From Blakeslea trispora (lineage: Eukaryota; Mucoromycota; Mucoromycetes; Mucorales; Choanephoraceae): DNA of 64,000 nt. Position numbers and translations under genes: made by a program. Below, in pieces: positions 1-49,805 of the stretch (its first letter is position 1; the number at the start of each line of letters is the position of its first letter). The stretch is taken from the NCBI GenBank assembly GCA_025331445.1, contig JAIWNE010000036.1, positions 62,001 through 126,000 of the forward strand, read 5' to 3'. Under the pieces are notes generated by a model that saw only the letters and a program-made list of their open reading frames with translations, did not search any database and was not told where the DNA came from.

Positions 1-390
1 CTTTTATGTATCGATCCTGGTCAAACTATTGAGCTTACAGCTACTGTTCAGTTGAGATCGTACCTCTATTACCTTTGATCGATCTTCTTTTTTCTATTGC
101 CATCGTTTAAAAGAAATTGAATAATAGAATAGGGTGTCCTAGAAAGTTTTAGAAATTCTATAAAAGGCAATATCTCTTTCACTCAGCCAGGATGTACAGT
201 GCTTCCAACAAGCAATGTCGCAGCCAATCAAAATCGATGTCGCAGGCCAATCAAAATTAATTTCATATTTTCGGAAATAGAAATCGTTATTTTTAGAAAC
301 CATGTCGCCTGCTTAGAAATCATGTCGTGAAGAGTGGTTTTTTTTTCTTCATCAATACTTTACAATTTAACATGAATACAATATTTTTAT

Positions 391-1656
391 ATGAAGATGG
401 GCATGGAAGGGTTGTTGATGAGAATGGCGGGCCCTGAGCCTATGGACTACATTGTTGATCAGAATGAATTTATTGTTGAGACAATTGCTACACATACTGA
501 GTACTTGAAAACTACGGCCTCCAGTGAATCATCTCTGACTTGCCCAATGTTGACAGAAAAGACAAAAGACAAAGATATTTGTATGAAGGAAGCAAACACG
601 AAACAAGATTATGTGCGTTATACTGTTCAGGATAAAGCTAGGTTTTTTGATCTGAAGATCGAAAAGTGCATGAGTGCGTCAGCTGCAGCGAAGCAGTTGG
701 GTATTCACATTCGAACAGCGCAGAGATGGGTTAACCAGTATAATGTGTGTCCTGATAGTATTTTTGAGAGTTGTAAAAAAGTAGGTCGTAAGTGCATCTT
801 AACTGAAGAGCATAAAACGACTGTTATCAACTTCATTGATGCTAATCCCTCTGCTACTGTTGTTGAAGTGACCGAGCATTTATCAACGCAATTTCATGAT
901 CTTAAAGTCTCACGCAGCACTGTCTATAACTTTATGAGAAGTGAATGTAGCCTTTCGTTGAAGAAAGCAGATTTTCATTCTATTGAGAGAAACAGTTCGG
1001 CAAAGATTGAGGAACGACACGATTGGGTTTGCAAATGGGAGAATACCGACATGAATTTCCTGACAAATTGCGTGTTTCTTGACGAGTCTGCGTTTGATAT
1101 TAATATGAAACGCTCACGAGCTTGGTCCAAAAAAGGTTCTCGTGCCATTGTTACCAGACCCACTACGAGAGCAAATACAACGTCTATATTGGGCGCTATC
1201 TCCGCTTCAGGTTTGATTGCAGTTGGCGTGAAAAAACCAAGACCTGTTAAGAAGAGAAAAGCTGATGGATATATAAGCTCAGGAACTGTCACAGGCCACT
1301 ACATCAGTTTCTTAAAAACGACTCTCGATGAAATGGACAAGCATTTGCATATGAAAGGCCATTATATAGTCATGGATAATGCACCCATTCACACGCACGA
1401 AAACATAAAGAAGTATATAGAATATCGAGGATACAAATGTGTGTATCTTCCTACTTACTCTCCTAAGCTTAACCCAATAGAACAATTCTGGGCAGTGGCA
1501 AAGAGTAAGGTTAAGCGCCATAGGTTTTTGCAGGAAGACACTTTATCAAAAAGAATTACAGAAGCCTGCAACAGTGTGGAAAAAGGTCACTTCAAAGGCT
1601 TTGTTTCGCATTCTTACAAGTGCTGGGATAAATGTCGAAACAAGGAGCCTATGTAA
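391..1656 (+). CDS. Tc1/mariner-IS630 transposase, left copy (DD34E)
   Basis: A 421-residue single-exon transposase expected to cut and paste the element in the nucleus. A helix-turn-helix region lies around residues 98-120 (AAAKQLGIHIRTAQRWV). The DDE_3-type catalytic domain shows the first Asp in VFLDES, the second in VMDNAPIH and the Glu in LNPIEQFW. Thirty-four residues lie between the second Asp and the Glu, giving DD34E as in Tc1-type enzymes. ATG at 391 lies 195 bp inside the element, just after an A/T-rich leader. The stop TAA overlaps a following ATG (TAATG). The reading frame is intact and its protein is identical to the copy at 6087-7352, so activity is plausible but not shown. Confidence 0.93.
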   Translation: MKMGMEGLLMRMAGPEPMDYIVDQNEFIVETIATHTEYLKTTASSESSLTCPMLTEKTKDKDICMKEANTKQDYVRYTVQDKARFFDLKIEKCMSASAAAKQLGIHIRTAQRWVNQYNVCPDSIFESCKKVGRKCILTEEHKTTVINFIDANPSATVVEVTEHLSTQFHDLKVSRSTVYNFMRSECSLSLKKADFHSIERNSSAKIEERHDWVCKWENTDMNFLTNCVFLDESAFDINMKRSRAWSKKGSRAIVTRPTTRANTTSILGAISASGLIAVGVKKPRPVKKRKADGYISSGTVTGHYISFLKTTLDEMDKHLHMKGHYIVMDNAPIHTHENIKKYIEYRGYKCVYLPTYSPKLNPIEQFWAVAKSKVKRHRFLQEDTLSKRITEACNSVEKGHFKGFVSHSYKCWDKCRNKEPM

Positions 1657-1888
1657 TGGCATCGACAACCACACCAGAAGCCAATAATACAGCGATTAAG
1701 AAAAAGGTAAGCTACAATCAGATCAGCAACAAACAATTTTAACTTTATTATATATTTTTTTTATGTAGGTCATACAACATTGGCAAGTATTTTTAAGAGG
1801 ACCAAGTGTAGGACACTTCAGAAAAGATATAGAACACTTCAGAATAGATATAGGACACTTCAGAATAGATGTAGGACACCTAGAATAG
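1656..1888 (+). CDS. Small spliced ORF overlapping the transposase stop, reading into the minisatellite
   Basis: ATG at 1656 shares its A with the transposase TAA. Seventeen codons (MASTTTPEANNTAIKKK) end at a consensus donor GTAAGC at 1707. A T-rich stretch and TAG acceptor end at 1768. The second exon (1769-1888, phase 0) encodes VIQHWQVFLRGPSVGHF, then two to three seven-residue repeats of the type GHFRIDI encoded by 21-bp minisatellite units, until a 20-bp unit shifts to a stop. A 56-residue product is predicted. The function is unknown and no family is recognised. Expression could use termination-reinitiation. It may instead be a splice-competent 3' UTR. Confidence 0.35.
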
Positions 1889-2682
1889 ATATAGGACACC
1901 TAGAATAGATATAGGACACCTAGAAAAGATATAGGACACTTCAGAATAGATATAGGACACTTCAGAATAGATGTAGGACACTTCAGAATAGATGTAGGAC
2001 ACGTCAGAATAGATATAGGACACCTAGAAAAGATATAGGACACCTAGAATAGATATAGGACACCTAGAAAAGATATAGGACACCTAGAATAGATATAGGA
2101 CACCTAGAAAAGATATAGGACACCTAGAATAGATATAGGACACCTAGAAAAGATATAGGACACTTCAGAAAAGATATAGGACACTTCAGAATAGATATAG
2201 GACACTTCAGAATAGATGTAGGACACCTAGAATAGATATAGGACACCTAGAAAAGATATAGGACACTTCAGAAAAGATATAGGACACCTAGAAAAGATAT
2301 AGGACACCTAGAAAAGATATAGGACACGTCAGAAAAGATATAGGACACCTAGAATAGATATAGGACACCTAGAAAAGATGTAGGACACCTAGAAAAGATA
2401 TAGGACACTTCAGAATAGATGTAGGACACGTCAGAAAAGATATAGGACACCTAGAAAAGATATATAGGACACTTCAGAATAGATGTAGGACACGTCAGAA
2501 TAGATATAGGACACGTCAGAATAGATATAGGACACCTAGAAAAGATATAGGACACGTCAGAAAAGATATAGGACACTTCGGAATAGATATAGGACACTTC
2601 AGAAAAGATGTAGGACACCTAGAATAGATATAAGACACCTAGAATAGATATAGGACACTTCAGAATAGATATAGGACACTTC
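1806..2682 (+). repeat. Minisatellite of 20/21-bp units, left array
   Basis: About 42 tandem units. Three core variants occur: GGACACCTAGA (20-bp unit), GGACACTTCAGA and GGACACGTCAGA (21-bp units). Each is followed by AAAGAT or ATAGAT and then AT or GT. Units are nearly free of other substitutions, so the array is a mosaic of discrete variants, not a gradually decayed repeat. Confidence 0.95.
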
Positions 2683-2759
2683 AACTGCGCGCAAATGATG
2701 GGAGAAATCTGGCAGTTCATGTTCATAGCATCGTGAACAGTTATTTTTTTTATACATAC

Positions 2760-3269
2760 TTGCCATGCATAATAAGTAGACATCGCTCTCATTCAAATAA
2801 CAAATGTCAGTCGCTGGACAATTGAAATTGATGCTATTGACCAATCAAAATTAATTTTGTATTTTCTCGATTGTTTTTTAGTTGCTTGGAAATAAGCAAT
2901 TCGTGTGATCTCTTATTGTTTTCTCTTTTTTGGCGTTTTATACGGAGTATCAAATAAGCCTTTGGAAATGAAAATGTTAAATATAGCTAAAATTTGTTTA
3001 AATGTACTGACCAAAATGTTGGTATTGAGATAATCGATATAAGTAAAGTGGAGAAATAGATAATTTGAAATAGAATTAAAAAGAGAGGAAAACAAGATGT
3101 GGGATAAAGTGGGTTACTGTGGTTTTATGGTTTTTGAGGTAAGTGGTGTAGCATCGCACAATTACTATGTTATGCTATTGTAATAAGACAGTCATACCAA
3201 AGGTTTTTACCAAAATCAGTGCACCACAGAACACCTTCAATAAGAACTGTTGAGCTTTAATTCCGTTCC
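2760..3269. other. Inner left spacer with a diverged copy of the element terminus
   Basis: Positions about 2817-2900 resemble the subterminal sequence at 212-310, sharing the core CCAATCAAAATTAATTT followed by GTATTTTC versus CATATTTTC. The rest is A/T-rich with no convincing gene. The inverted similarity to 4880-4983 is imperfect here. Confidence 0.5.
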
Positions 3270-4723
3270 ATGGCGTTTTATACGCCATGGATTTGGTGCC
3301 TCCGGTCAGCAAAAGTTTTTTCTCTTTCCTTTTTTTTCAGTTGTAATTCTCTTGCCTTGAAAATGTTAACTTTAGGCCAAGCTTCCTGCCTTGTCCTTGG
3401 ATACAAACCCAATGATCCAGAAGAGAGAAAAAAGGCAAAAGAACATCTAGAAAAAAGTGGCTTAATTGCAGTACACATACGTAATCACGATCCTTTTCAA
3501 CCGATGGCCATTGGTATCAGTGTACACGAGCGAGATCCCTTCAAATTCATAAGTTATCCCGATTCTCCAACAATGTCACCCACAGATTTACCTGATAACA
3601 TTGATGATCACGATGGCAACGACAACAACGGCAATAACGACGATAGCAACAACAATGACAGCGACGATAGCAACAGCAGCATCTATAAAAATAATAATAG
3701 CAACAACAGTAACAAAGAAAGTTCTAAAAAACGGAAGCTTGATGACACGGTTATACCATTCTGCAAGGATCGTCTGCTGAACCTTATGAAAGATATTGCC
3801 ACCGATGAAAATCCTTTGAACGACAATTGTTATTCCAAACAATTCCTAACTGCAGAAGATCAATACCAACTAATGTGCAGTGTGTTCCCGCGTCTTAAAA
3901 ATCATTGTACCGTAAATCAACTTCAATATTGGATTGGACAGGCAAAGATCTGGGGAAAATCAGGACGCTCACGAAAAAATCAGCGAAAACCTGGACGAAA
4001 CTTATGGGTGGTTGATGAACAGCTAAGGGGTAAAAACACTTCACTAAATCTTGGGTTTCCATATTTTAACAATCTATTCTGTAGCGTTCGTAACGGATAC
4101 TTCCGACTCGGTCAAGGCATACTGGAAATATTTACAAAATGATACCAAATACATAACAATTGGATACGCACGTAAATCGCCAACTGACGAAACAAAAGAA
4201 TCACGAATACGTTTATTACAGTTAATGGTGAACAAACTATACTTCCGCGGAAAGTGCGAAGAAGTATTTGTGAGCCCAATTTGCAAAGCAGACCAACCAA
4301 TATTAGAAAGAGACTCGCCAAAGCAGGATGATTTACTGCTGCATTTAAAAGGATCCCATGGCGATATCTCAGGTACATCAAGGTTCAGTATAATAGTTAT
4401 AATAACTGAAGATTTTTCTATAGATTTAGTTGCACGCGTCCATTTCAGCCAAAAACTTTTCCGCCTTGTCATCATTGACTACGCCGGGCTTTCAACGTCA
4501 CCAAATGATATTAGGATTTTTTTGGAGTAAGTCGAAAAGAATACTGATTGCAGCAAGTTTTTTTATGCTAATTAATTTGAATACTAGACAATGCAGCAAT
4601 ATCAAAGAAGTTGTTGTAGACCATGGCTCTTCGTTTGAGATCTTATCACGTTTTGATCTTTTGAAGAATATGAAGCTGGAAAAATTTAAATGTCGACATG
4701 CCAACGTTAAACGATCAAAGTAA
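3270..4723 (+). CDS. Four-exon cargo gene inside the element, unknown; weakly serine-recombinase-like
   Basis: Exons 3270-4029, 4085-4372, 4424-4526 and 4588-4723 join in frame through canonical GT-AG introns of 55, 51 and 61 nt. They give 429 codons including the stop; an in-frame ATG at 3363 could be the true start. Features: an Asp/Asn-rich low-complexity tract (about residues 108-150), a basic KKRKL patch, a Lys/Arg-rich segment (SGRSRKNQRKPGR), then ITIGYARKSP (about residues 277-286) and later IIDYAGLSTSPNDI. The YARKS stretch recalls the catalytic N-terminus of serine recombinases, and IDYAGLS might occupy the place of their DRLSR motif, but I cannot confirm homology. Alternatives are an orphan mucoralean family captured as cargo. 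The coding frame is intact. Confidence 0.55.
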
Positions 4724-5060
4724 TTTTTTTTTTCGTGCTAATGGTTTGTCTAATAAAAAACGAAAAAGAAGTTGTTTATTGCAAGTTTATTTTCCCTTTT
4801 TTTTTTAAAAAAAAATAAAGTGCTTACGCCGCAGTAATCCAATTTGATATTGTAATGACATGTTGATCTTTGGGAAATTTGAAAAGAATACAATTAGGTC
4901 GCTCTCATTGAAAAGATGACGTATGTTATTTTGAATGAGAACGACCATTTTTCGATGCAATGGCTACTTATCATCCATAGCGTGTATGTATAAAAAAAAA
5001 TAACTGTTCACGATGCTATGAACATGAACTGCCAGATTTCTCCCATCATTTGCGCGCAGT

Positions 5061-5937
5061 TGAAGTGTCCTATATCTATTCTGAAGTGTCCTATATCTAT
5101 TCTAGGTGTCTTATATCTATTCTAGGTGTCCTATATTTATTCTGAAGTGTCCTATATCTTTTCTAGGTGTCCTACATCTTTTCTAGGTGTCCTACATCTT
5201 TTCTAGGTGTCCTATATCTTTTCTAGGTGTCCTATATCTTTTCTGAAGTGTCCTATATCTTTTCTAGGTGTCCTATATCTTTTCTGACGTGTCCTACATC
5301 TATTCTGAAGTGTCCTATATCTATTCTAGGTGTCCTACATCTTTTCTGAAGTGTCCTACATCTATTCTGAAGTGTCCTACATCTTTTCTGAAGTGTCCTA
5401 CATCTATTCTGAAGTGTCCTATATCTATTCTGAAGTGTCCTATATCTTTTCTAGGTGTCCTATATCTATTCCGAAGTGTCCTATATCTTTTCTAGGTGTC
5501 CTATATCTTTTCTGAAGTGTCCTACATCTATTCTGAAGTGTCCTATATCTTTTCTAGGTGTCCTATATCTTTTCTAGGTGTCCTATATCTTTTCTGAAGT
5601 GTCCTATATCTTTTCTAGGTGTCCTATATCTTTTCTAGGTGTCCTACATCTATTCTGAAGTGTCCTACATCTATTCTGAAGTGTCCTATATCTATTCTGA
5701 AGTGTCCTATATCTTTTCTAGGTGTCCTATATCTATTCTAGGTGTCCTATATCTATTCTAGGTGTCCTACATCTATTCTGAAGTGTCCTATATCTATTCT
5801 GAAGTGTTCTATATCTTTTCTAGGTGTCCTATATCTATTCTAGGTGTCCTATATCTATTCTAGGTGTCCTACATCTATTCTGAAGTGTCCTATATCTATT
5901 CTGAAGTGTTCTATATCTTTTCTGAAGTGTCCTACAC
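5061..5937 (-). repeat. Minisatellite of 20/21-bp units, right array
   Basis: Reverse complement of the left array in unit type and total length, but not in unit order. Starting from the outer end, a five-unit block of about 102 bp containing the rare variant GAACAC appears twice here and once in the left array. That indicates a block duplication in one arm, offset by other changes further in. Confidence 0.95.
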
Positions 5938-6087
5938 TTGGTCCTCTTAAAAATACTTGCCAATGTTGTATGACCTACATAAAAAAAATATATAATAAAG
6001 TTAAAATTGTTTGTTGCTGATCTGATTGTAGCTTACCTTTTTCTTAATCGCTGTATTATTGGCTTCTGGTGTGGTTGTCGATGCCAT
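5855..6087 (-). CDS. Small spliced ORF overlapping the transposase stop, right copy
   Basis: Mirror of 1656-1888 at the same offsets: first exon 6087-6037, intron 6036-5975, second exon 5974-5855. The first units of the right array match the left array up to the stop codon, so the predicted peptide is the same. No function is assigned. Confidence 0.33.
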
Positions 6088-7548
6088 TACATAGGCTCCT
6101 TGTTTCGACATTTATCCCAGCACTTGTAAGAATGCGAAACAAAGCCTTTGAAGTGACCTTTTTCCACACTGTTGCAGGCTTCTGTAATTCTTTTTGATAA
6201 AGTGTCTTCCTGCAAAAACCTATGGCGCTTAACCTTACTCTTTGCCACTGCCCAGAATTGTTCTATTGGGTTAAGCTTAGGAGAGTAAGTAGGAAGATAC
6301 ACACATTTGTATCCTCGATATTCTATATACTTCTTTATGTTTTCGTGCGTGTGAATGGGTGCATTATCCATGACTATATAATGGCCTTTCATATGCAAAT
6401 GCTTGTCCATTTCATCGAGAGTCGTTTTTAAGAAACTGATGTAGTGGCCTGTGACAGTTCCTGAGCTTATATATCCATCAGCTTTTCTCTTCTTAACAGG
6501 TCTTGGTTTTTTCACGCCAACTGCAATCAAACCTGAAGCGGAGATAGCGCCCAATATAGACGTTGTATTTGCTCTCGTAGTGGGTCTGGTAACAATGGCA
6601 CGAGAACCTTTTTTGGACCAAGCTCGTGAGCGTTTCATATTAATATCAAACGCAGACTCGTCAAGAAACACGCAATTTGTCAGGAAATTCATGTCGGTAT
6701 TCTCCCATTTGCAAACCCAATCGTGTCGTTCCTCAATCTTTGCCGAACTGTTTCTCTCAATAGAATGAAAATCTGCTTTCTTCAACGAAAGGCTACATTC
6801 ACTTCTCATAAAGTTATAGACAGTGCTGCGTGAGACTTTAAGATCATGAAATTGCGTTGATAAATGCTCGGTCACTTCAACAACAGTAGCAGAGGGATTA
6901 GCATCAATGAAGTTGATAACAGTCGTTTTATGCTCTTCAGTTAAGATGCACTTACGACCTACTTTTTTACAACTCTCAAAAATACTATCAGGACACACAT
7001 TATACTGGTTAACCCATCTCTGCGCTGTTCGAATGTGAATACCCAACTGCTTCGCTGCAGCTGACGCACTCATGCACTTTTCGATCTTCAGATCAAAAAA
7101 CCTAGCTTTATCCTGAACAGTATAACGCACATAATCTTGTTTCGTGTTTGCTTCCTTCATACAAATATCTTTGTCTTTTGTCTTTTCTGTCAACATTGGG
7201 CAAGTCAGAGATGATTCACTGGAGGCCGTAGTTTTCAAGTACTCAGTATGTGTAGCAATTGTCTCAACAATAAATTCATTCTGATCAACAATGTAGTCCA
7301 TAGGCTCAGGGCCCGCCATTCTCATCAACAACCCTTCCATGCCCATCTTCATATAAAAATATTGTATTCATGTTAAATTGTAAAGTATTGATGAAGAAAA
7401 AAAAACCACTCTTCACGACATGATTTCTAAGCAGGCGACATGGTTTCTAAAAATAACGATTTCTATTTCCGAAAATATGAAATTAATTTTGATTGGCCTG
7501 CGACATCGATTTTGATTGGCTGCGACATTGCTTGTTGGAAGCACTGTA

Positions 7549-29251: not shown

Positions 29252-29413
29252 TCAAGCAATTGTGTTTACAGGATGCTTATAATAAAAATCAATTTTTGTT
29301 GTTAATTTTCTTAAGACTGTAGCCTTTCAAGACATTTTATTTGCTTTCATTCTTCTGAAATTGCCATTTTTTTTTTTTTTTTACTAGCCCAACATTTAAG
29401 GTTAGAGTATATC

Positions 29414-30877
29414 ATGGCTTCCTCCGCTAAAAAACATAACCTGCCTAATAAGGCAATATCATCTGTCATTCTGCCCAGAGCATGGGCTTCAGTTGTCAGA
29501 GGTACTGATACTTCTCAGACCTCATTGTTTTCGCAAAACGCTCCCCAGGAGGATAGTTTTGCACCAGGCACCCGAAATCCTTTTCTGAAGGGCTCGCTTC
29601 CAGAATCAGTTTTCATCGACATCACGAATGTCAAAGACATCAAGCTCTTCTTCAGCGATCTTACGGCTCTTTGTTCGCCGAATGATCAACTTTGGGGTCT
29701 CGACGAAACTCCTCGAGCTGAGGGCTCTCGTTCATTTATTGAATGCGTTCTTGCAGGACCTTTGGCCACTGAGGTTACTACCAACGGTCTTCGTCTTCCT
29801 TCTTTTCAGGCACCGTTTTCAGCCTTTGATGCTCTGTCAGCGGACGTTAAAATTCTGAAAATTTCGATTTCCGGCTTACCTCGTCAGTATGGGCGAAATG
29901 ATGGTGGTGCAGCCGAATTGAAGTCAGACATAATGAGCAATCTCTCCCCTTTTGGTAGGGTGGTTGATTGTGGCCTAGTTCGAGGTATTGCTGGCACCTT
30001 TACCGGTAGAGGTTTTGTTGTCTTGGAGGTTGATCCATCCTCATCCAACCAAATCCAACATGAAGTTCACTGGCAATACAATTATCTGTCAGCTCGTGGT
30101 AATCTTGCCAATTCCTTCTCTGACGCCATCAAGGTGTACGCTACTTGGGCAAAGATGGATCCATATTGTCGCTATTGCCACAAGCAGGACCATGTCATCA
30201 CAGATTGTCCTACAAGACATGCCTCTTTAGTTTGCTACAACTGTCACGAACGAGGCCATATAGCCAAGGACTGTCCTAGAAAGAATGCTGCTCGAAGCGG
30301 CTCTTCTAACAAAAAGCCTAGAAAAACACCTCTGGATAAACCTTCCAGTTCGGAGGTTCATTCACGCCCTTCTGAGGGTGTCCATCTGTCTGTGGTTGCT
30401 AAACCTGTTGAGCCACAGACGTCCATCGTCTCTCATGTGCCTTCTGTGGTCTCACCCGTCGAACCCAGGGCCAACATTGCTTCTGGTTCTTCTTCGGTAC
30501 GCACTCTTCCGCAACTTGTGATTCGTACAAGGGCGCAGGCTTCAAAAGAACGTGGACCCGAGTCCGCTCCTTCTGAACCCTTGCCCCCAGTTGCGGTCAG
30601 TGCCATAGATCTGTCGACCTCTAAGTCAGACGCCACTAATTTAGATTTGACCAGATCAGCTCCAGTTTGTACTGCCTGTGGCCAATCAGGCCATAAACGT
30701 CGCAACCACAATAGCTGTCCCTTGAACCCCAAGAATGTCAATGCTGCATTGCCTGACGAATCCTCCTCCTCTATAGATGTGCCTCAGACGTCTGGCATGG
30801 AGCTTGACCTTCACAGTTCTCTATCTGATCATCACATTACAGGTGATAGTGACGCTTGTCACCAACAATTACTCTAA
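29414..30877 (+). CDS. LINE ORF1, gag-like protein with zinc knuckles
   Basis: A 487-residue nucleic-acid-binding protein of a LINE, expected to package the element RNA. Two CCHC zinc knuckles (CRYCHKQDHVITDCP and CYNCHERGHIAKDCP) lie around residues 253-290, with a basic segment after them. A third Cys/His motif, CTACGQSGHKRRNHNSCP, lies near residue 420. The region between is rich in Ser/Pro/Val. The stop codon (30875-30877) lies five bases before the ORF2 ATG, so ORF2 is probably reached by reinitiation. No stops or frameshifts are seen. Confidence 0.9.
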   Translation: MASSAKKHNLPNKAISSVILPRAWASVVRGTDTSQTSLFSQNAPQEDSFAPGTRNPFLKGSLPESVFIDITNVKDIKLFFSDLTALCSPNDQLWGLDETPRAEGSRSFIECVLAGPLATEVTTNGLRLPSFQAPFSAFDALSADVKILKISISGLPRQYGRNDGGAAELKSDIMSNLSPFGRVVDCGLVRGIAGTFTGRGFVVLEVDPSSSNQIQHEVHWQYNYLSARGNLANSFSDAIKVYATWAKMDPYCRYCHKQDHVITDCPTRHASLVCYNCHERGHIAKDCPRKNAARSGSSNKKPRKTPLDKPSSSEVHSRPSEGVHLSVVAKPVEPQTSIVSHVPSVVSPVEPRANIASGSSSVRTLPQLVIRTRAQASKERGPESAPSEPLPPVAVSAIDLSTSKSDATNLDLTRSAPVCTACGQSGHKRRNHNSCPLNPKNVNAALPDESSSSIDVPQTSGMELDLHSSLSDHHITGDSDACHQQLL

Positions 30878-30882
30878 ATACG

Positions 30883-33800
30883 ATGATCATGAATTTAGAC
30901 AACGATATGGCCCATTTATTCTTACACGATGGTGTATCCTCGGATACCCAATTTAACCCCCCGGACTCCTCTTTTAAACCCTTTCCTCTCAAAATCGCAA
31001 CCCTGAACTGTCGTGGTTTGCGCAAATCCGCTAACCCTACCACTAGCTCTCAGTTCATTCGTTATCTTCGTACTCTCTCCTTAGACATTATTGCTCTTCA
31101 AGAGACACATGCTATTTCCACTGATATCGAAGCTCGATTTCATACACAGTTTCAAGCTGTGGATAGCATTTGGACTCCACACTGTGGTCTTGTCTCTTTC
31201 TCTCCAAGTATCTCCTTTTCTGAGATCGTTAAGAGCCCTTGTGGCCGTCTCATTACCGCAACTGTATCGCATGTCTCGAATCTGTTTGATCCTATCGCTA
31301 TCAGTGTCCTGTATGCTCCAGCGGATCGTAGGGCGCGGTACCCTTTCTTACAGAATTTAATCCAGTCGCTTTCTTCCTCTCGTATCTTACCTTCTCAACC
31401 TTTACGGCATATTCTGCTTGGTGATTTCAACTATTCTGTCGCCTCAAGCACTAATGCTAGAACTCGACGAAGCAAAGCTCCTACCCCTTGGCTGCATCAT
31501 ATCGATCAGTACTATGCCGACGCCATCACTCCGCGTAAGCACTCGCCTCAGGCCACTTTTTGTCGGGGATCGTCACAATCATGCATTGACTACATATACG
31601 TTTCAAATGACCTTCTCCCCTCCCGCACCTATGGATCTGTCTCATTCATGAACCCCGTTTGGACGGATCATTTCTTGGTTAAAGTTCACTTACAGCTAAT
31701 ACCATCATCTGTCTCTGACTCCATGAAGCAGACTGGTAAGGGTATCTGGCGAGCTCATCCAGGCCTAGCTAAGGATCCGGCTTTTGGCACAAGGCTAGCT
31801 GCAGCTCTCTCGCAGACAGTCTCTTCCTTTCCTGATTGGTATTACCCCACTTTGCAATGGGAATCTATCAAGAACACCGCACGATCAGTGGCTCAGTCCT
31901 ACTCCCGCCAGAAGTCGTATTCGTTTAAAAAAGCCGAACAAACACTTCAGGTAAGACGTAGAATTTTGTTGAAGCTCATCAATCGCTTTCCCGAACGCAC
32001 TAAAGATGTATCGCCTCAACTCCGGGTGATTGAAGGTCAACTCCAGCAACTGCAACAGTATCATACTGAAACATTGGCATTGCGTGCTGGCATTCGTTGG
32101 AGAGAACTGGGCGAGACATCCGCCGGGTACTTAAAACGGACTGTCCAACAGAGGGCATCTCGCAGCCTTATCCCTCCTTTGCTGCATCCTGAGACAGGAG
32201 CTCTCAGCACGTGTCGTGAAGACATGCTGGATGCTTCTGCCTGCTTTTATCGAAATTTGTACACTCCAGATGATATTGACCAGTCGTCGGTGGATGATCT
32301 CCTTTCTCACATCCCTGACTCGGTCAAACTTTCTGCTGAGGCCCAAGAAGACTTGACGACTCCTTTCACCATCAATGATCTCTTGGAAGGTGTTAACCGT
32401 TCCCCAAAGAAGAGTAGTCCTGGTACTGACGGCCTACCGTATGAAATATTACAATTAATTTTTCTTCACCCTGACTGTCAATCGATTGCTCTCCGTGTTT
32501 TCAACGATGTTTTGGCATATGGATTCTTTCCTTCCTCATGGATGGATACTTCTGTCTCTCTCTTGCCAAAAAAGGGGTCTTTAGCTGATCTTCGAAACTG
32601 GCGTCCCATCTCTCTCATCAATACCGATGCAAAGGTCTTTACCAGACTCATCAACAGTCGTGTCGTTGAGTGTGCATCTTCTCTGATCACGCCATATCAA
32701 ACTGGGTTTGTTCGAGGCCGTTTCATTGCCGATAATGGTCTACTAATGAAACTAGCCATGGACTATGCTCGCCAAACAAGTTCTCCTGCAATTGGACTGT
32801 TTCTTGACCAAGAGAAAGCATATGACAGAGTACATCCCGACTACCTTCGACAGGTGTTGCTCCGGTTTGGCTTTCCTCAGAGCTTAGTCACCTCTTTGAC
32901 GACATTGTTCTTTGACACACAGCTTCGACTTAATGTCAATGGGTTTCTTTCGTCTCCTGTTCCGCAGCTCCGTGGCCTTCGTCAGGGTGATCCAATCTCC
33001 CCTGTTCTGTTCAACCTCGCCTTTGAACCACTGCTGCGAAGTGTTCTCAATGATCCTGGCTTCACTGGACTGCATCTTCCACGACCACGCCCTTCTTGCT
33101 CTGGCGCCCCCCTCAAACTGTTGGCTTATGCTGATGACATTGTGTGTTTTCTGAACAACCCTAATGACCTCACCATTCTTCAGCACCTGCTGCATAAGTA
33201 CTCGAAGGCATCCAACGCTGTAGTCAACTTTCATAAAACTCAAGCATTCTCTCTTTCTGGTCGGCCTCTGTCTTCACCTACCTCTATTTGGAGAGAACCC
33301 TTAACGTCACACCATATTTTGCAATGGCACGATTGCTTGGCAGCACAACCTTTGGTTTATCTGGGTTATCCACTGACTACCTCGGTCCAGCAGCGGGATG
33401 CTTTTTGTGCCGAGTTGCTGTCGAAAATCCAAACAGCTTGCTCCTTACACTCCCATCGCTCTCTGTCATTTCGGGGTAGAGCCCTTGTTGTCAATTCTTT
33501 GATCCTCTCTCGGTTATGGCATATTCTTCGGGTGACCTCACTTCCTGCTGCCTTATTCACCAAAGTTCGATCTCTGATCTCCCAGTTCATGAATCGTCAG
33601 GTCTTTCCCAAACTGAGTTTTGCCGTCATGTGCCGCCCACGTCGCCAGGGTGGCCTCGGTCTACTTGATCCGCGAGTGCAACAGCACACACTTCAACTCC
33701 GTTGGCTTAAACCCCTTTTGCTGCCTTCTTTAAGTTGGGACGATTCTATTCTTCTTCCTCGTCTGGTCGATTGGCTGATTCATTGTTCCTCCTCCTCTTC

Positions 33801-34893
33801 TCTGGTCGCAACTGATCATTGGTCTCACCTGGATTGTCGTCTGGCTTTTGTATTTCCTTCCCTTCGACATCCTTCATTAACTGGATTCCATAACGTTTTC
33901 TCTCTTCTTTTCAAAGCGTTAGATGCTCTACCCCGATCGTTTGAGTCGATAGTAGTGAGCCCTGCCACTTGCCTTTGTCTTCCACTCTCTGCGGTGATCA
34001 TACCCCCACAGGATCTTGTGATATCCCCTACCCTCCTCCGATTGTCTTGTTCTATGCTCTACTTCTTCGATTCTGCTACTCAACGGTTGCAGCCAAAATC
34101 AAGCCCTCAATTGACTGCTCATCCGACACTCTGTCGACGTTTTTTGAACCAGGTCCGCTCGAACCTCATCAAATTACAATCCTTTTTTGTGAAGGCATGT
34201 ATTCCACCAGCCTACGCATCCATCGGATCCAGGCCTTTTGTCCCTCTCACTACCCCTCTGCTGGTGGCAGCTGACCCATTTCTCATAGCCTTAGGCTTTA
34301 TCCCAGATGGTGACGATCTCCTAATGTCCTCAAAGGATTATCGATCACTTCTTGAAGTTCATGCAAATGTGTCTCGTTTGTCCTCGAGAGTGTGGAAGTT
34401 CTTTTGGAGGCTCCCTCTTTCCCATTCTGGTCGCAATATCTGGTATCGTCTCCTCTTGGGTAAGATCCCTTGTCGGGCAGTTCTGCACAAATTGGTCCCA
34501 TCTTTCTTTGACTCTCCACTCTGCCTACTATGTGGCACAGATGATGATACTCTCGACCACTTTCTCTGGCTTTGTCCCATTAAGCTCACAGTGTGGTCAA
34601 CCTTATGGTCTCTTTTTTTCAAGGACTCGTTCTCTATTGATGCACTCTCCAGGACTTTTACTTCTTGCACCTTTCCTGTCACACTTGCTTCATCACCCAT
34701 AGCGGACTCTAGCAGTGTCTTTGGCTCTATACTTGTTTGTATCTGGCGCGCACACTGGGCCTTTGTCTTCTCAAACAAACCCTTTGTCTCATCATCTGTG
34801 GTGGCTGATGTCATAAGGCAAGTTTCCGTCTCTCAACAAGAACACCTTATCAAATCGGGCTCATCTCACGCTCCGCTTTTTCTACTTGAATAA
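30883..34893 (+). CDS. LINE ORF2: AP-type endonuclease, reverse transcriptase, zinc-binding C-terminus
   Basis: A 1336-residue replication protein for target-primed reverse transcription. The N-terminal AP-type endonuclease shows TLNCRGL, IALQETHA, LLGDFNY, IDYIYVSN and WTDHFLV. The central RT shows FLDQEKAYDRVHPDYL, GLRQGDPISPVLFNLAFEP and the catalytic LLAYADDIVCF. The C-terminal zf-RVT-like motif is CRAVLH...CLLCGTDDDTLDHFLWLCP. The first ATG in frame is at 30883; the frame is open upstream to 30856 without ATG. Lack of RNase H and presence of the CCHC tail resemble L1/Tad-type LINEs; the exact clade was not determined. Intact, so possibly active. Confidence 0.93.
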   Translation: MIMNLDNDMAHLFLHDGVSSDTQFNPPDSSFKPFPLKIATLNCRGLRKSANPTTSSQFIRYLRTLSLDIIALQETHAISTDIEARFHTQFQAVDSIWTPHCGLVSFSPSISFSEIVKSPCGRLITATVSHVSNLFDPIAISVLYAPADRRARYPFLQNLIQSLSSSRILPSQPLRHILLGDFNYSVASSTNARTRRSKAPTPWLHHIDQYYADAITPRKHSPQATFCRGSSQSCIDYIYVSNDLLPSRTYGSVSFMNPVWTDHFLVKVHLQLIPSSVSDSMKQTGKGIWRAHPGLAKDPAFGTRLAAALSQTVSSFPDWYYPTLQWESIKNTARSVAQSYSRQKSYSFKKAEQTLQVRRRILLKLINRFPERTKDVSPQLRVIEGQLQQLQQYHTETLALRAGIRWRELGETSAGYLKRTVQQRASRSLIPPLLHPETGALSTCREDMLDASACFYRNLYTPDDIDQSSVDDLLSHIPDSVKLSAEAQEDLTTPFTINDLLEGVNRSPKKSSPGTDGLPYEILQLIFLHPDCQSIALRVFNDVLAYGFFPSSWMDTSVSLLPKKGSLADLRNWRPISLINTDAKVFTRLINSRVVECASSLITPYQTGFVRGRFIADNGLLMKLAMDYARQTSSPAIGLFLDQEKAYDRVHPDYLRQVLLRFGFPQSLVTSLTTLFFDTQLRLNVNGFLSSPVPQLRGLRQGDPISPVLFNLAFEPLLRSVLNDPGFTGLHLPRPRPSCSGAPLKLLAYADDIVCFLNNPNDLTILQHLLHKYSKASNAVVNFHKTQAFSLSGRPLSSPTSIWREPLTSHHILQWHDCLAAQPLVYLGYPLTTSVQQRDAFCAELLSKIQTACSLHSHRSLSFRGRALVVNSLILSRLWHILRVTSLPAALFTKVRSLISQFMNRQVFPKLSFAVMCRPRRQGGLGLLDPRVQQHTLQLRWLKPLLLPSLSWDDSILLPRLVDWLIHCSSSSSLVATDHWSHLDCRLAFVFPSLRHPSLTGFHNVFSLLFKALDALPRSFESIVVSPATCLCLPLSAVIIPPQDLVISPTLLRLSCSMLYFFDSATQRLQPKSSPQLTAHPTLCRRFLNQVRSNLIKLQSFFVKACIPPAYASIGSRPFVPLTTPLLVAADPFLIALGFIPDGDDLLMSSKDYRSLLEVHANVSRLSSRVWKFFWRLPLSHSGRNIWYRLLLGKIPCRAVLHKLVPSFFDSPLCLLCGTDDDTLDHFLWLCPIKLTVWSTLWSLFFKDSFSIDALSRTFTSCTFPVTLASSPIADSSSVFGSILVCIWRAHWAFVFSNKPFVSSSVVADVIRQVSVSQQEHLIKSGSSHAPLFLLE

Positions 34894-45761: not shown

Positions 45762-48641
45762 TTATTCTTGAAATTCAGAAGAAGCATCCTCAAACAAATC
45801 TTCCGAGTCACTCTCCTGGTACATATGGCGGTCCCCTAAGACAACAGATGTAAAGTCAGTCTTGAGCATGGAGTGGCGTTTGTAATGGTTCTCAAAGGTA
45901 GTGGAAGAAGACCAATTACCAAGAGTAACAATGTCTTGAAGGGGTAGACCATTAGAGAGGGCCAATGAGGCCGCGATGGAGCGGAGAGAGGCATTGCGCT
46001 CAGAAGTGGACAAGCGAATCAAACGACGAATCCAAGAGGAAATTGTAGTCACCAGCACCGGTTGGCGGGGAAGTCGTGATTTCACAAAGAGGGAAGAGGG
46101 TGGTCGAACATTCTTCGCCAAAAAATGGTCCCGCAGTGCGACGAATGCGGCCACAGGACAAAGTGATGGATCTGATGCGTGTGGGTGGATGTTCAACTGC
46201 TTGATAATGTGTTGCTTCTTACGGCGTTCCTTGGGGGCAACAACATTGAATGAGAGGATACCGGCAGAATCAACCGAGCAGGAACGAAGATCTATCCGAT
46301 GTAAGTCCGAAGGACGAAGAAAAGCAGCCATGCCCATTAGAAAGGCAACTTTGCTTTGTAACGAAGATAATGGCGCAGTGGTTGATGAAGGAATACTGGC
46401 CAAGTACTTCAGGGTTTTGGACAAATCAACTGCCGGCTTGTATTGAGGACGAGGGGCGGCCTGTGTTGCCAATGAGTCCAATAGTAGAACAACAGGGTTA
46501 TCAGATTGCTGGCGAATAGTAGAGGGTGAGTGGTGAAGGTGTGTCACAGCAGCACGAATAAGCTTCAACGTACTAAGTTGATAGCCACGGCTGTGGTAGA
46601 GGTGGGACAGGAAGTTAGTCAGATCATTGACTGTGTAATTACTGATGTCAATGTCATGCTCAAGTGCCCAGACCACGAAAAGCTCTTGACCGCGACGATA
46701 TGACCTGTTGGTGGTGGAGTCAACCAGGCGAGGATGGCGAATGATAGCCATAGATTCCAAAGACAAACCCTCGCTTAGAGATGAGGAGGACAAAGCATCC
46801 AAACGGAGAGAGTTGATTTGGTTGGAGTCAAGGGACATCTGGTCAGGGGAGACCGCAGCTCGATGTCCTGCGCTTGGAGTAAGATAGGGTCGTAGATTGC
46901 CAGCTGCTTCACCAAGGGGAACCAAGGCGCGCTCGTCCAATGTGGTGTCACGACAATGGATGGGAGTGAGGGCCTCTCCCGCTGAAGTTTTTCGATGCAC
47001 CTCATTAGTAAGTTCCATGGTGGGTTGATCCACGGCAAGTGGAACTGTGACCAGTCTAGGGAGAATGCGTCGATTTGCCATGCGCCTGGGTCGCGCTTCC
47101 AGGAGACGTATCTTGTACACAGGTTGGTTGTTCTGTCTGCGAATAGGTCCACATCTGGGTGAACTGTCCAGGACTGAAGTACCAACTGGAAAACCGTGGG
47201 CTTTACTTGCCACTGGTTCTTGTAGAATAGGCGTCGTGATTGCCAGTCTGCCTTGTGGTTGTCTATTCCCGCTATATGCTTGGCTGACAGTGTCAGACCT
47301 CTCCGTAGACACCATTTCCAGATGGTGGTTGCCAAGGTCATGAGATCGTAAGACCGGGTGCCGCCCTGTTTCTGGATATATGCCAGTGAGGTCGTGTTGT
47401 CTGTTCTTATCAGCACATGTTGGTTGCGAACGTCTGGAAACGATTGTAGGGCCAGAAACGCAGCCATCAACTCCTTCCAATTGATATGCTGCTTGCTCTC
47501 CTTGTGAGTCCAATGACCGCAGGCTGTCTGGTTTCGGTATGTGCATCCCCATCCCGTGTTCGATGCGTCGACGTATAACGTTGCTGATGCCGTTGAGGGA
47601 ATCATGGAACGGCCGTTCCAAATCGCCAAGTTGTCGATCTACCATTTGATCTCTGCCAGCGCTAAAGGGCTCAAGGTTTGCGGGATGTCCCATCGAGGGT
47701 CGGATCGCATCCATCTGTTCTTCTGGTACAGGAGGTGTCGCGTGTACAGACGGGCCGGAAACAGTGCAAAGGTTGCTGCCTGAAGCCGCATGATTAGGCT
47801 CTGCACTTTGCGAGGTGTTTGGCGAGGATGGCGGTAGACTTGTAGCAGGGATCTCTGTAGGTCCCGTAGTTTCTTCCCAGGTAAGGAGTCCTGCATTGTG
47901 CTTGTATTCAACATAAATCCCAGATGTTCGATCTGTTGAGTGGGTTGTAGATTCGATTTCTCGTGATTCACAATCCACCCTAGGTTGTTTAAACAAGACA
48001 AGACTGTTGCAGTATGCCTGCGAATTATGTCCTTCGATTCTCCCATGATAATCCAGTCGTCGAGGTAAGCAGCTAGACGGATGCCCTGACCCCGAGCCCA
48101 CTCCACAATTGGTCGTGTTATCTTGGTGAACCAATACGGAACGATGTTTAGACCAAAAGGAGTGGTTCGAAATTGATAGAGTTGATCTTGCCAGCGGAAG
48201 CGAAGATATTTGCGAGAATCTGGATGAAGAGGAAGGTGTAGAAAAGCGTCTGACAGGTCTATTGAAACTAAATAATCGTTGGGTTTGATCATTAGTGCAA
48301 TATCTTGTATTGTCTCCATTTTGAAATGGGGACAGTCTACATATTGATTTAAGGTCTTCAAGTTGAAGACCGGTCTCACTCCGCCCGTCTTCTTCGGGAC
48401 CGTGAAGATTGGACTGATGAAGCTGGAGTGAGCTTCCGATGCTGGAACTAGTTCGATTGCTCTTTTCTGGACAAGATCCATCAAAGCTATGTCGAGATCG
48501 GTAGGTTGATTTCCGGATTTGGCGGCGGAAATTGATGAGTGGTAGGAAGTGTTTTGTAGTGGCGGATGTTGATGAAAGGGAATGCGGAATCCGTGTTGAA
48601 CGGCGTTCAGCAGATAGTGGTGTGGGAAGAGTTGAATCCAT
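45762..48641 (-). CDS. DIRS tyrosine recombinase ORF, overlapping pol
   Basis: A 959-codon frame, open from ATG at 48641. Its first ~600 codons overlap the RT/RH/methylase frame and may be coding only in part. The integrase is the C-terminal ~320 residues: a SAM-like N-terminal region (SYRRGQELFVVWALEHDIDISNYTV) and the catalytic part with Arg in MGMAAFLRPSDLHRI, Arg in NASLRSIAASLALSNG, and Tyr in TFENHYKRHS. It integrates the circular cDNA by site-specific-type recombination. Long dual-frame overlap between pol and YR is known for DIRS-1. Confidence 0.8.
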   Translation of the reverse strand: MDSTLPTPLSAERRSTRIPHSLSSTSATTKHFLPLINFRRQIRKSTYRSRHSFDGSCPEKSNRTSSSIGSSLQLHQSNLHGPEEDGRSETGLQLEDLKSICRLSPFQNGDNTRYCTNDQTQRLFSFNRPVRRFSTPSSSSRFSQISSLPLARSTLSISNHSFWSKHRSVLVHQDNTTNCGVGSGSGHPSSCLPRRLDYHGRIEGHNSQAYCNSLVLFKQPRVDCESREIESTTHSTDRTSGIYVEYKHNAGLLTWEETTGPTEIPATSLPPSSPNTSQSAEPNHAASGSNLCTVSGPSVHATPPVPEEQMDAIRPSMGHPANLEPFSAGRDQMVDRQLGDLERPFHDSLNGISNVIRRRIEHGMGMHIPKPDSLRSLDSQGEQAAYQLEGVDGCVSGPTIVSRRSQPTCADKNRQHDLTGIYPETGRHPVLRSHDLGNHHLEMVSTERSDTVSQAYSGNRQPQGRLAITTPILQEPVASKAHGFPVGTSVLDSSPRCGPIRRQNNQPVYKIRLLEARPRRMANRRILPRLVTVPLAVDQPTMELTNEVHRKTSAGEALTPIHCRDTTLDERALVPLGEAAGNLRPYLTPSAGHRAAVSPDQMSLDSNQINSLRLDALSSSSLSEGLSLESMAIIRHPRLVDSTTNRSYRRGQELFVVWALEHDIDISNYTVNDLTNFLSHLYHSRGYQLSTLKLIRAAVTHLHHSPSTIRQQSDNPVVLLLDSLATQAAPRPQYKPAVDLSKTLKYLASIPSSTTAPLSSLQSKVAFLMGMAAFLRPSDLHRIDLRSCSVDSAGILSFNVVAPKERRKKQHIIKQLNIHPHASDPSLCPVAAFVALRDHFLAKNVRPPSSLFVKSRLPRQPVLVTTISSWIRRLIRLSTSERNASLRSIAASLALSNGLPLQDIVTLGNWSSSTTFENHYKRHSMLKTDFTSVVLGDRHMYQESDSEDLFEDASSEFQE

Positions 48642-48712
48642 TTGGGGGCAAATTGTTGAAGGCGACCCCCGACTAAACCGGCCTTTGTTGAGAAAGACAG
48701 GTTGGAGTGCAA
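46775..48712 (-). pseudogene. DIRS pol: RT, RNase H and DAM-like methylase, interrupted by one stop
   Basis: The frame has two open parts, 48712-47639 and 47638-46775, in the same phase and separated by a single TAG (47641-47639). Part one holds the RT: LVSIDLSDAFLHLPL, RTTPFGLNIVP and the catalytic AAYLDDWII. Part two holds RNase H (LYVDASNTGWG, NWKELMAAFLALQ, IRTDNTTSLAY) and a methylase-like region (VDLFADRTTNLC, INPPWNLL). The TAG follows a Trp codon and looks like a point mutation from TGG. The pol frame begins without a nearby ATG, in a different phase from gag, so frameshifting or reinitiation is implied. This copy is probably non-autonomous for RT. Confidence 0.8.
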
Positions 48713-48714
48713 GC

Positions 48715-49617
48715 TTACTGGCGCTTTGTGTATGTCTTCGAAAAAGGTTTCTTGTTTTGAAACGAAGTGTTCGGTTGGGAAGGCGTGCCCTGCCGAAAAG
48801 ACGACTGGGAGGGGCCAGCGGAGGTAGAGGAAGACGAGGGATCGATAGTGGATCTCTGTCTAAATCTACGAGCTTGCTTGCCTTTGTTTGGAGAAAAGTT
48901 CTTGGCTTCCTTCAAAGACTTTTCTGCAGCGGTCTGCTGAGTGATTGAAGAGTTGAATTCACTCAAAGACATAGTATATTTGGTGTCAGAGGATTGCGAA
49001 GGCAAAGAGAAGGACTGATTGATGCTACGCATGGCAATGTTATTACGATGATGATTCAACGTGCGAGTAACGTTCAGTAACAATGAACGGACATCATGAA
49101 TCATATGCAAAAATCGCTGAGCATCACCGTCAGGAATATTGGCCGTGTAGATTTCGTAGCCTAAAATGTCCAAAGGACGAAGGATACCAGTTAGTTGATA
49201 TTGCGTATCTTTCAATACAGCATCCTCATGCTGTTGGCCTTTGTTCATCTGTTTCTGGGCAAGTGGCAATGTTGATGGTGCCTTGTACTCCATGTGGCGC
49301 ATGGGCGGATATGACTCAATTAGTTCTTTCCTTTGAGTGTCACCAAGTGGCGTCAAAAGGAAAGGGGATTGTTTGAGATCAAGAATCTCGGCTAATTCCT
49401 CGGGAGGTGTCCAGTCAAACTGTTGACGAACAGCAATTGAGTGAACAGGGGTACTGGTGTCTACTTCCTCCATCTCAGGGGAAGGGGTAGCGCTGATATT
49501 GGCATCTTCAGCGGGTGTGTTATGTTGTGTTTGTAACACAAGTTTTTCCAGGAGTTGTTGGGTAGCTAACAACTGTTGTTGAATTCCAGTAATAGTCTCA
49601 GGTGTAACTTCTGACAT
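48715..49617 (-). CDS. DIRS gag-like ORF
   Basis: A 300-residue ORF at the 5' end of the element. The N-terminus (MSEVTPETITGIQQQLLATQQLLEKL) is a short coiled-coil-like helix. The C-terminus is Ser/Gln/Arg/Lys-rich and basic (GKQARRFRQRS, FSKTYTKRQ), consistent with nucleic-acid binding. No zinc knuckle is present, as in other DIRS gag proteins. The stop at 48717-48715 is followed two bases later by the pol frame. Confidence 0.7.
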   Translation of the reverse strand: MSEVTPETITGIQQQLLATQQLLEKLVLQTQHNTPAEDANISATPSPEMEEVDTSTPVHSIAVRQQFDWTPPEELAEILDLKQSPFLLTPLGDTQRKELIESYPPMRHMEYKAPSTLPLAQKQMNKGQQHEDAVLKDTQYQLTGILRPLDILGYEIYTANIPDGDAQRFLHMIHDVRSLLLNVTRTLNHHRNNIAMRSINQSFSLPSQSSDTKYTMSLSEFNSSITQQTAAEKSLKEAKNFSPNKGKQARRFRQRSTIDPSSSSTSAGPSQSSFRQGTPSQPNTSFQNKKPFSKTYTKRQ

Positions 49618-49655
49618 TTTTGAAAAATCTAATTTGACGGTAAGTGACCTGAGCG

Positions 49656-49805
49656 AAAAAGATGATCAATTGTATAATAGTGATAAAAATTTTGTTTTTA
49701 TTTCGCTGTTTTAAATAAAGAAAGATGATTAAGCAATGTAATTCGTTCTTGTATAATTTCGACGGTCTCACTCAATTCTACGAGAATTTCGTTCGACCTT
49801 GAATT
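49656..49805 (-). repeat. DIRS 5' inverted terminal repeat
   Basis: Pairs with 45470-45586. The outer edge (ATTTCGACGGTCTCACTCAA to GTTCGACCTTGAATT) is complementary to the second half of the internal complementary region. Confidence 0.9.

Follow-up and report, generated by a model that had tools for sequence, protein, structure and literature searches.

A 7.35-kb Tc1/mariner-type element in Blakeslea trispora with transposase-bearing inverted arms and a central gene for a protein resembling serine recombinases

The Tec elements of the ciliate Euplotes combine a Tc1/mariner-type transposase with terminal repeats of about 700 bp and a site-specific recombinase, according to the portion of the article available to us (PMC7325037), in whose reference list a title assigns that recombinase to the tyrosine family. 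Mariner elements with extra genes, such as those with Fanzor1, are also described, the accessory genes named in the accessible text being those for a nuclease, a methyltransferase or Fanzor (PMC3627910). TnpA of the IS607 family joins a serine-recombinase domain to an N-terminal DNA-binding part and binds subterminal repeats cooperatively, and IS607 elements have neither terminal inverted repeats nor a target duplication, as the available sections of one article put it (PMC6188088). Among titles and abstract openings of the open-licence literature, we found no earlier description of Tc1/mariner elements that carry a serine-recombinase gene or whose arms bear transposase genes. The stretch of B. 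trispora DNA analysed here (64,000 nucleotides, hereafter the window) contains at positions 197-7546 a single TA-flanked element of 7.35 kb in which two transposase (tnp) genes point inwards at a predicted spliced gene. This unusual build raises the question of why one transposon would keep two kinds of DNA-handling enzyme.

The left arm (197-2759, plus strand) and the right arm (4984-7546, minus strand), each 2,563 bp long, were recognized as inverted matches of one another, and the whole lies between two copies of a TA target duplication (195-196 and 7547-7548). The original prediction, which was made from this sequence alone, reported an exact inverse match of the termini with TA on each side, and the alignment confirms it: positions 195-1808 and the reverse complement of 5935-7548 have 0 differences over 1,614 columns, TA included. 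Both ends of the element read TA followed by CAGTGCTTCC. In five of seven other copies in the genome (C220, C281, C1, C146 and C112) the start is TA followed by CA(G/A)TG; of the remaining two, C245 has TG at this place and the end of C68 is unalignable. Together, the arm alignment and the comparison of ends support one TA-flanked unit whose arms carry the tnp genes.

The proposed hunt for empty TA sites also succeeded, in that three related places in the genome read through the TA in the manner expected of empty sites. The two flanks, joined at one TA, match G000:C253:497609-497744 at 96%, its inverted twin G000:C253:466318-466453 likewise at 96% (as reported by the search, unaligned) and C157:355438-355567 at 92%, in each case across the junction. 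On alignment, the first C253 site and the C157 site each have one TA. The left match at C253 is short (27 bp, compared with 351 bp at 81% on the right) because the insertion is near the edge of that repeat. The C253 and C157 sites are related repeats, not alleles; the two C253 copies are inverted relative to each other and lie about 31 kb apart.

Inwards of the identical outer portion, each arm carries an array of 42 units, delimited by unit comparison and, on the left, also by a genome pattern scan: the left array (1809-2683, plus strand; units of 20-22 bp) and the right array (5061-5934, minus strand), in which the units follow another order, align with 811 matches, 53 mismatches and 21 gap columns. 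When the units are classified by type, ABCDDE opens and DMF closes both arrays and the middles differ; near its outer end the right array runs on BCDDEFCC where the left has FCC, which looks like a duplication of five units. A 34-base unit pattern, searched with up to 3 mismatches, has 41 matches genome-wide, every one of them in these two arrays. The arm alignment continues past the arrays into an inner segment (2684-2759, plus strand; 4984-5060, minus strand) that is identical between the arms except for one 1-base gap, and beyond it arm similarity decays gradually inwards with no sharp end. At G000:C248:165135-165323 the inner arm survives on its own as a relic that includes about three array units. 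Between the left arm and the central gene, the element also contains two repeats (2971-3234 and 3243-3336), which are likely later insertions; of the first, nine further copies occur at 87-93% identity and more at 71-79%. Elsewhere in the window, 29315-34893 is a non-LTR retrotransposon in which a CCHC ORF (zf-CCHC) precedes an ORF containing the domains Exo_endo_phos, RVT_1 and zf-RVT. Overlapping minus-strand ORFs, one with RVT_1, occupy 45762-49665, which we take to be possibly a DIRS-like element; the ORF at 45762-48911 has zero Pfam matches, and on reading its end resembles a tyrosine recombinase.

Each arm encodes the same 421-aa transposase, identified from its ORF and Pfam domains at 391-1656 (plus strand; also by alignment) and at 6087-7352 (minus strand). 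Pfam finds DDE_3 (2.3e-29) and HTH_23 (9.2e-07), and the triad D231, D329 and E364 has the 34-residue spacing of DD34E between its second aspartate and the glutamate. A DD34E triad in a DDE_3-type domain, an N-terminal HTH and a TA target duplication, double around the element and single at the empty-site-like places, place the element within Tc1/mariner. It departs from the usual plan of one transposase and short terminal inverted repeats, which is not strictly defining, by having two tnp genes in 2.56-kb arms. Comparison with six relatives from the same genome (C281, C146, C112, C1, C220 and C43) shows that the tnp frame of the window is shifted from that of every one of them just upstream of the motif PEPM(D/E)Y, which in C43 reads VEPMDL; the annotated ORF therefore begins at a different ATG, with the HTH and DDE domains downstream of it, and the natural start may be altered. 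C146 has a separate frame shift of its own, farther upstream. The shift is identical in the left and right arms, indicating a history shared by the arms since that change. Thus, of the two identical, intact transposases originally predicted, identity stands, and intactness does not extend to the frame-shifted start region. Compared with five other copies of its lineage, the transposase gene has dS of 0.50-0.93 and dN/dS of 0.12-0.25; a sixth compared locus, C253, which lies outside the lineage, is saturated. An ATG overlapping the tnp stop codon (TAATG) opens a short, probably spliced ORF (1654-1800) that begins MASTTT, and this beginning is also present in the Rhizopus arrhizus gene model P0125. 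We took P0125 itself, in which a peptide from the arm is joined to the central gene in another frame, to be an annotation artefact.

The central gene is predicted to comprise four plus-strand exons: exon 1 (3363-4029), which from comparison with relatives and a structural model would encode an N-terminal part, a D/N-rich linker and a winged-helix-like part; exon 2 (4085-4372), with the YxRxS motif of the serine-recombinase fold; exon 3 (4424-4526), with IIDYAGLS; and exon 4 (4588-4723), with the stop codon. Consistent with the spliced gene expected in the middle of the element, these exons, joined at GT-AG introns whose positions were set from relatives such as P0124 (two alternative splice pairs exist), would yield a protein of 397 aa. 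This protein looks like a DNA recombinase with the fold of the serine-recombinase catalytic domain, its recombinase activity being putative. In a 30-row alignment, the 25 rows with letters at the YxRxS motif have Y in 25, R in 25 and the nucleophile S in 24. The arginines of DRxxR are missing, the matching motif, as read off the sequence rather than from a residue-level superposition, being DYAGL; the central protein is therefore not classed as an active serine recombinase. Searches of Pfam with the central protein gave nothing at a credible score, and in a sequence search of the PDB, likewise without a credible match, the best E was 0.26. A first full-length model was of low quality (pLDDT 57.4), and a Foldseek search with it had no serine-recombinase title among the 50 matches listed; Foldseek alone gave no significant match. 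Scans of viral contigs with P0124, with the transposase and with a 27-base terminal pattern found zero relatives, as did a scan of bacterial and archaeal genomes with the transposase.

The central gene occurs in the same genome, itself or as relics, at seven loci (the window, C43, C79, C222, C224, C234 and, weakly at E 0.002, C245), and in five of them (the window, C43, C234, C79 and, again weakly, C245) a transposase gene or a piece of one converges on its 3' side; around C222 and C224, the DNA examined holds a central-gene relic and no tnp. The original prediction treated the central gene as cargo; this is corrected here, since the gene belongs to the transposon lineage, rather than being a chance acquisition, and encodes a protein with a serine-recombinase fold. 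C43, as an old relic, shows the same arm-cargo-arm plan in reduced form: inverted arms (94.9% identity over 214 columns and 92.1% over 114) with a tnp start in each and a central-gene relic between them. The tnp pieces of C43 share 53-57% identity with the window transposase; for its central gene, identity is 35% and 44% over the two best long pieces but 22% over the middle. Because only about 35-40 tnp codons are retained on one side of C43 and the other tnp is gapped, its arms may never have spanned an entire transposase gene. C234 has a tnp piece on each side with unequal divergence (45% and 77%), and at C79 a tnp start faces the central gene. A perfect 361-bp inverted repeat surrounds the central-gene relic at G000:C224:240799-242837; we dropped this locus as an arm-cargo-arm copy, its boundary having neither TA nor CAGTG.

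We examined 27 tnp loci (L004-L030) of the 102 genome matches. Sixteen of these are bracketed, in the style of ordinary elements, by terminal repeats of 37-185 bp with one transposase; five (L007, L011, L024, L027 and L029) belong to the lineage of the window, and none of the five is bracketed. Two relics, C146 and C112, are single-ended: the roughly 4.5 kb downstream of them hold neither a second end nor a central gene. The DNA examined around C1, C281 and C220 yielded no central gene. C1 was considered as a two-ended copy with a single transposase and dropped, a reading of its sequence placing another Tc1-like relic between the ends (a 27% piece, E 0.007). The genome search for arm-cargo-arm copies therefore bore out the prediction in the reduced form of C43, and not in the single-ended C146 and C112 or in the 16 ordinary-like loci; there is no second complete copy of the element in this genome. 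Two opposed tnp loci about 10 kb apart (G000:C215:235710-236786 and 246332-247408) are 99.7% identical over 1,426 bases. In a tree of 37 transposase rows (the window, 20 genomic loci and 16 database proteins, with C79 left out as having no usable match), the lineage of the window separates from 14 other genomic loci and P0119 (FastTree 0.925, UFBoot 98); the split of C43 from the remaining lineage is weaker (0.833 and 78).

Comparison with other species suggests that the two genes adjoin in R. arrhizus, where the central gene and tnp have the adjacent tags G6F29_011779 and G6F29_011780, and in Gilbertella, where one transposase and one central protein are both listed with an 89,436-base contig. 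A protein search with the transposase was considered for the best 120 of 428 matches, and the named genera among those listed are, we presume, all Mucorales. In Circinella minor, two relatives of the central gene (INT45_013247 and INT45_013249; P0135 and P0159) are two tags apart, both being listed with a 140,244-base contig.

The reading that we favour, and hold to be probable though well short of assured, is that the element is a two-gene Tc1/mariner transposon of a Mucoromycota lineage, whose terminal repeats have spread inwards over the transposase gene, the array and a further 76 bp. Transposase from either arm would cut at the outermost CAGTG ends and move all 7.35 kb; gene conversion, i.e. 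repair copying between arms, would maintain the identity of the outer arms, with the arrays rearranging independently; and the second protein would bind DNA and assist in the pairing of ends or the resolution of intermediates, possibly with reduced catalytic power. In favour of this reading count the identical outer arms with their common frame shift, the inward fall in similarity, the plan of C43, the convergence of tnp on the central gene at five of seven loci, the tags and contig listing in R. arrhizus and Gilbertella, the tree split, the recombinase fold and the empty-site-like places. Against it stand the lack of a second complete copy, the single-ended C146 and C112, the absence of a central gene (C1, C281 and C220) or of a tnp (C222 and C224) in the DNA examined, the reduced arms of C43, the short left match at C253, the missing DRxxR arginines and the lack of a significant match by Foldseek alone.

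The strongest alternative, which we consider unlikely but by no means negligible, is that an element with one transposase and the central gene gained its mirror arm once, in a recent inverted duplication without lasting conversion, so that the arms are simply young. The 0 differences over 1,614 columns and the frame shift common to both arms agree with this, as does the apparent five-unit duplication in the right array, which fits fast array reshuffling; tandem arrays can reshuffle quickly. A single recent event is harder to reconcile with the gradual inward fading of similarity, with an old relic (C43) that has tnp starts at both ends and with the C79 tnp start that faces the central gene, and for these reasons we favour conversion. 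Indeed, the identity of the outer 1,614 bp stands against dS of 0.50-0.93 among other tnp copies of the lineage, and homogenization of the arms by gene conversion appears the more likely process from these sequence comparisons.

A composite transposon, in which two ordinary inverted elements flank a host gene by chance, is highly improbable. It would account for two complete inward-facing transposase genes around a gene and for a terminus-like stretch on the left (2841-2866, plus strand), which has 24 of 26 bases as in 247-272, in direct orientation, a score reached by 0 of 500 shuffles. The inner right side (4736-4960), searched on both strands, has no terminus-like sequence (scores reached by 31 and 70 of 200 shuffles), so that the arms are not each a complete element with both ends, and the central gene recurs beside tnp at other loci and probably in other species too. 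That one arm is a misassembled duplicate is the least probable explanation of all: perfect 1.6-kb repeats are difficult to assemble, but unit order differs between the arrays, which makes a duplicated contig piece unlikely, the flanks meet at a TA matching the empty-site-like copies, both ends begin like independent copies, and C43 has the same plan in reduced form.

Within the favoured reading of a two-gene transposon, the 20/21-bp arrays are a candidate target of the central protein by analogy with IS607-family TnpA, which binds subterminal repeats cooperatively; since no array was seen in C43, such a target would be a later gain. The central protein might even act on the inverted arms, perhaps at the 42-unit arrays, and flip the centre, a conjecture to which we give little credence. 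The yeast 2-micron plasmid, with a recombinase and inverted repeats, is the model for such flipping, which if true would help to keep the arms alike and could multiply an excised circle prior to its reinsertion by the DDE enzyme.

If the favoured reading is right, a mucoralean transposon lineage pairs a DDE transposase with a protein of serine-recombinase fold, and its terminal repeats swallow whole genes. The element would then be a natural system in which to study how inverted arms undergo gene conversion, and it would caution that fungal assemblies built from short reads may collapse or misread elements of this kind. It shares with Tc1/mariner (IS630-Tc1-mariner) elements of the DD34E type the TA target, the CAGTG ends, the HTH and DDE_3 transposase and the D-E spacing of 34, and differs in its two full tnp genes within 2.56-kb arms, its second, spliced gene and its length of 7.35 kb. 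Mariner elements with Fanzor1 and other genes likewise have Mariner ends, TA and accessory ORFs, whereas the part of the source available to us describes no mirror-image pair of transposase genes like that present here (PMC3627910). IS607-family TnpA resembles the central protein in its serine-recombinase domain, and its N-terminal DNA-binding part may have a counterpart in the winged-helix-like part of the central protein, as far as the accessible sections describe it (PMC6188088); the central protein, in contrast, lacks the DRxxR arginines, and mobility here would depend on the DDE enzyme. The nearest precedent, on the available text of PMC7325037, are the Tec elements of Euplotes, which likewise have a Tc1/mariner-type transposase, long terminal repeats and a second recombinase enzyme. 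The B. trispora element, which if correctly interpreted would be their fungal counterpart, differs in having a serine-recombinase fold in place of a recombinase of the tyrosine family, and terminal repeats that contain the entire transposase gene.
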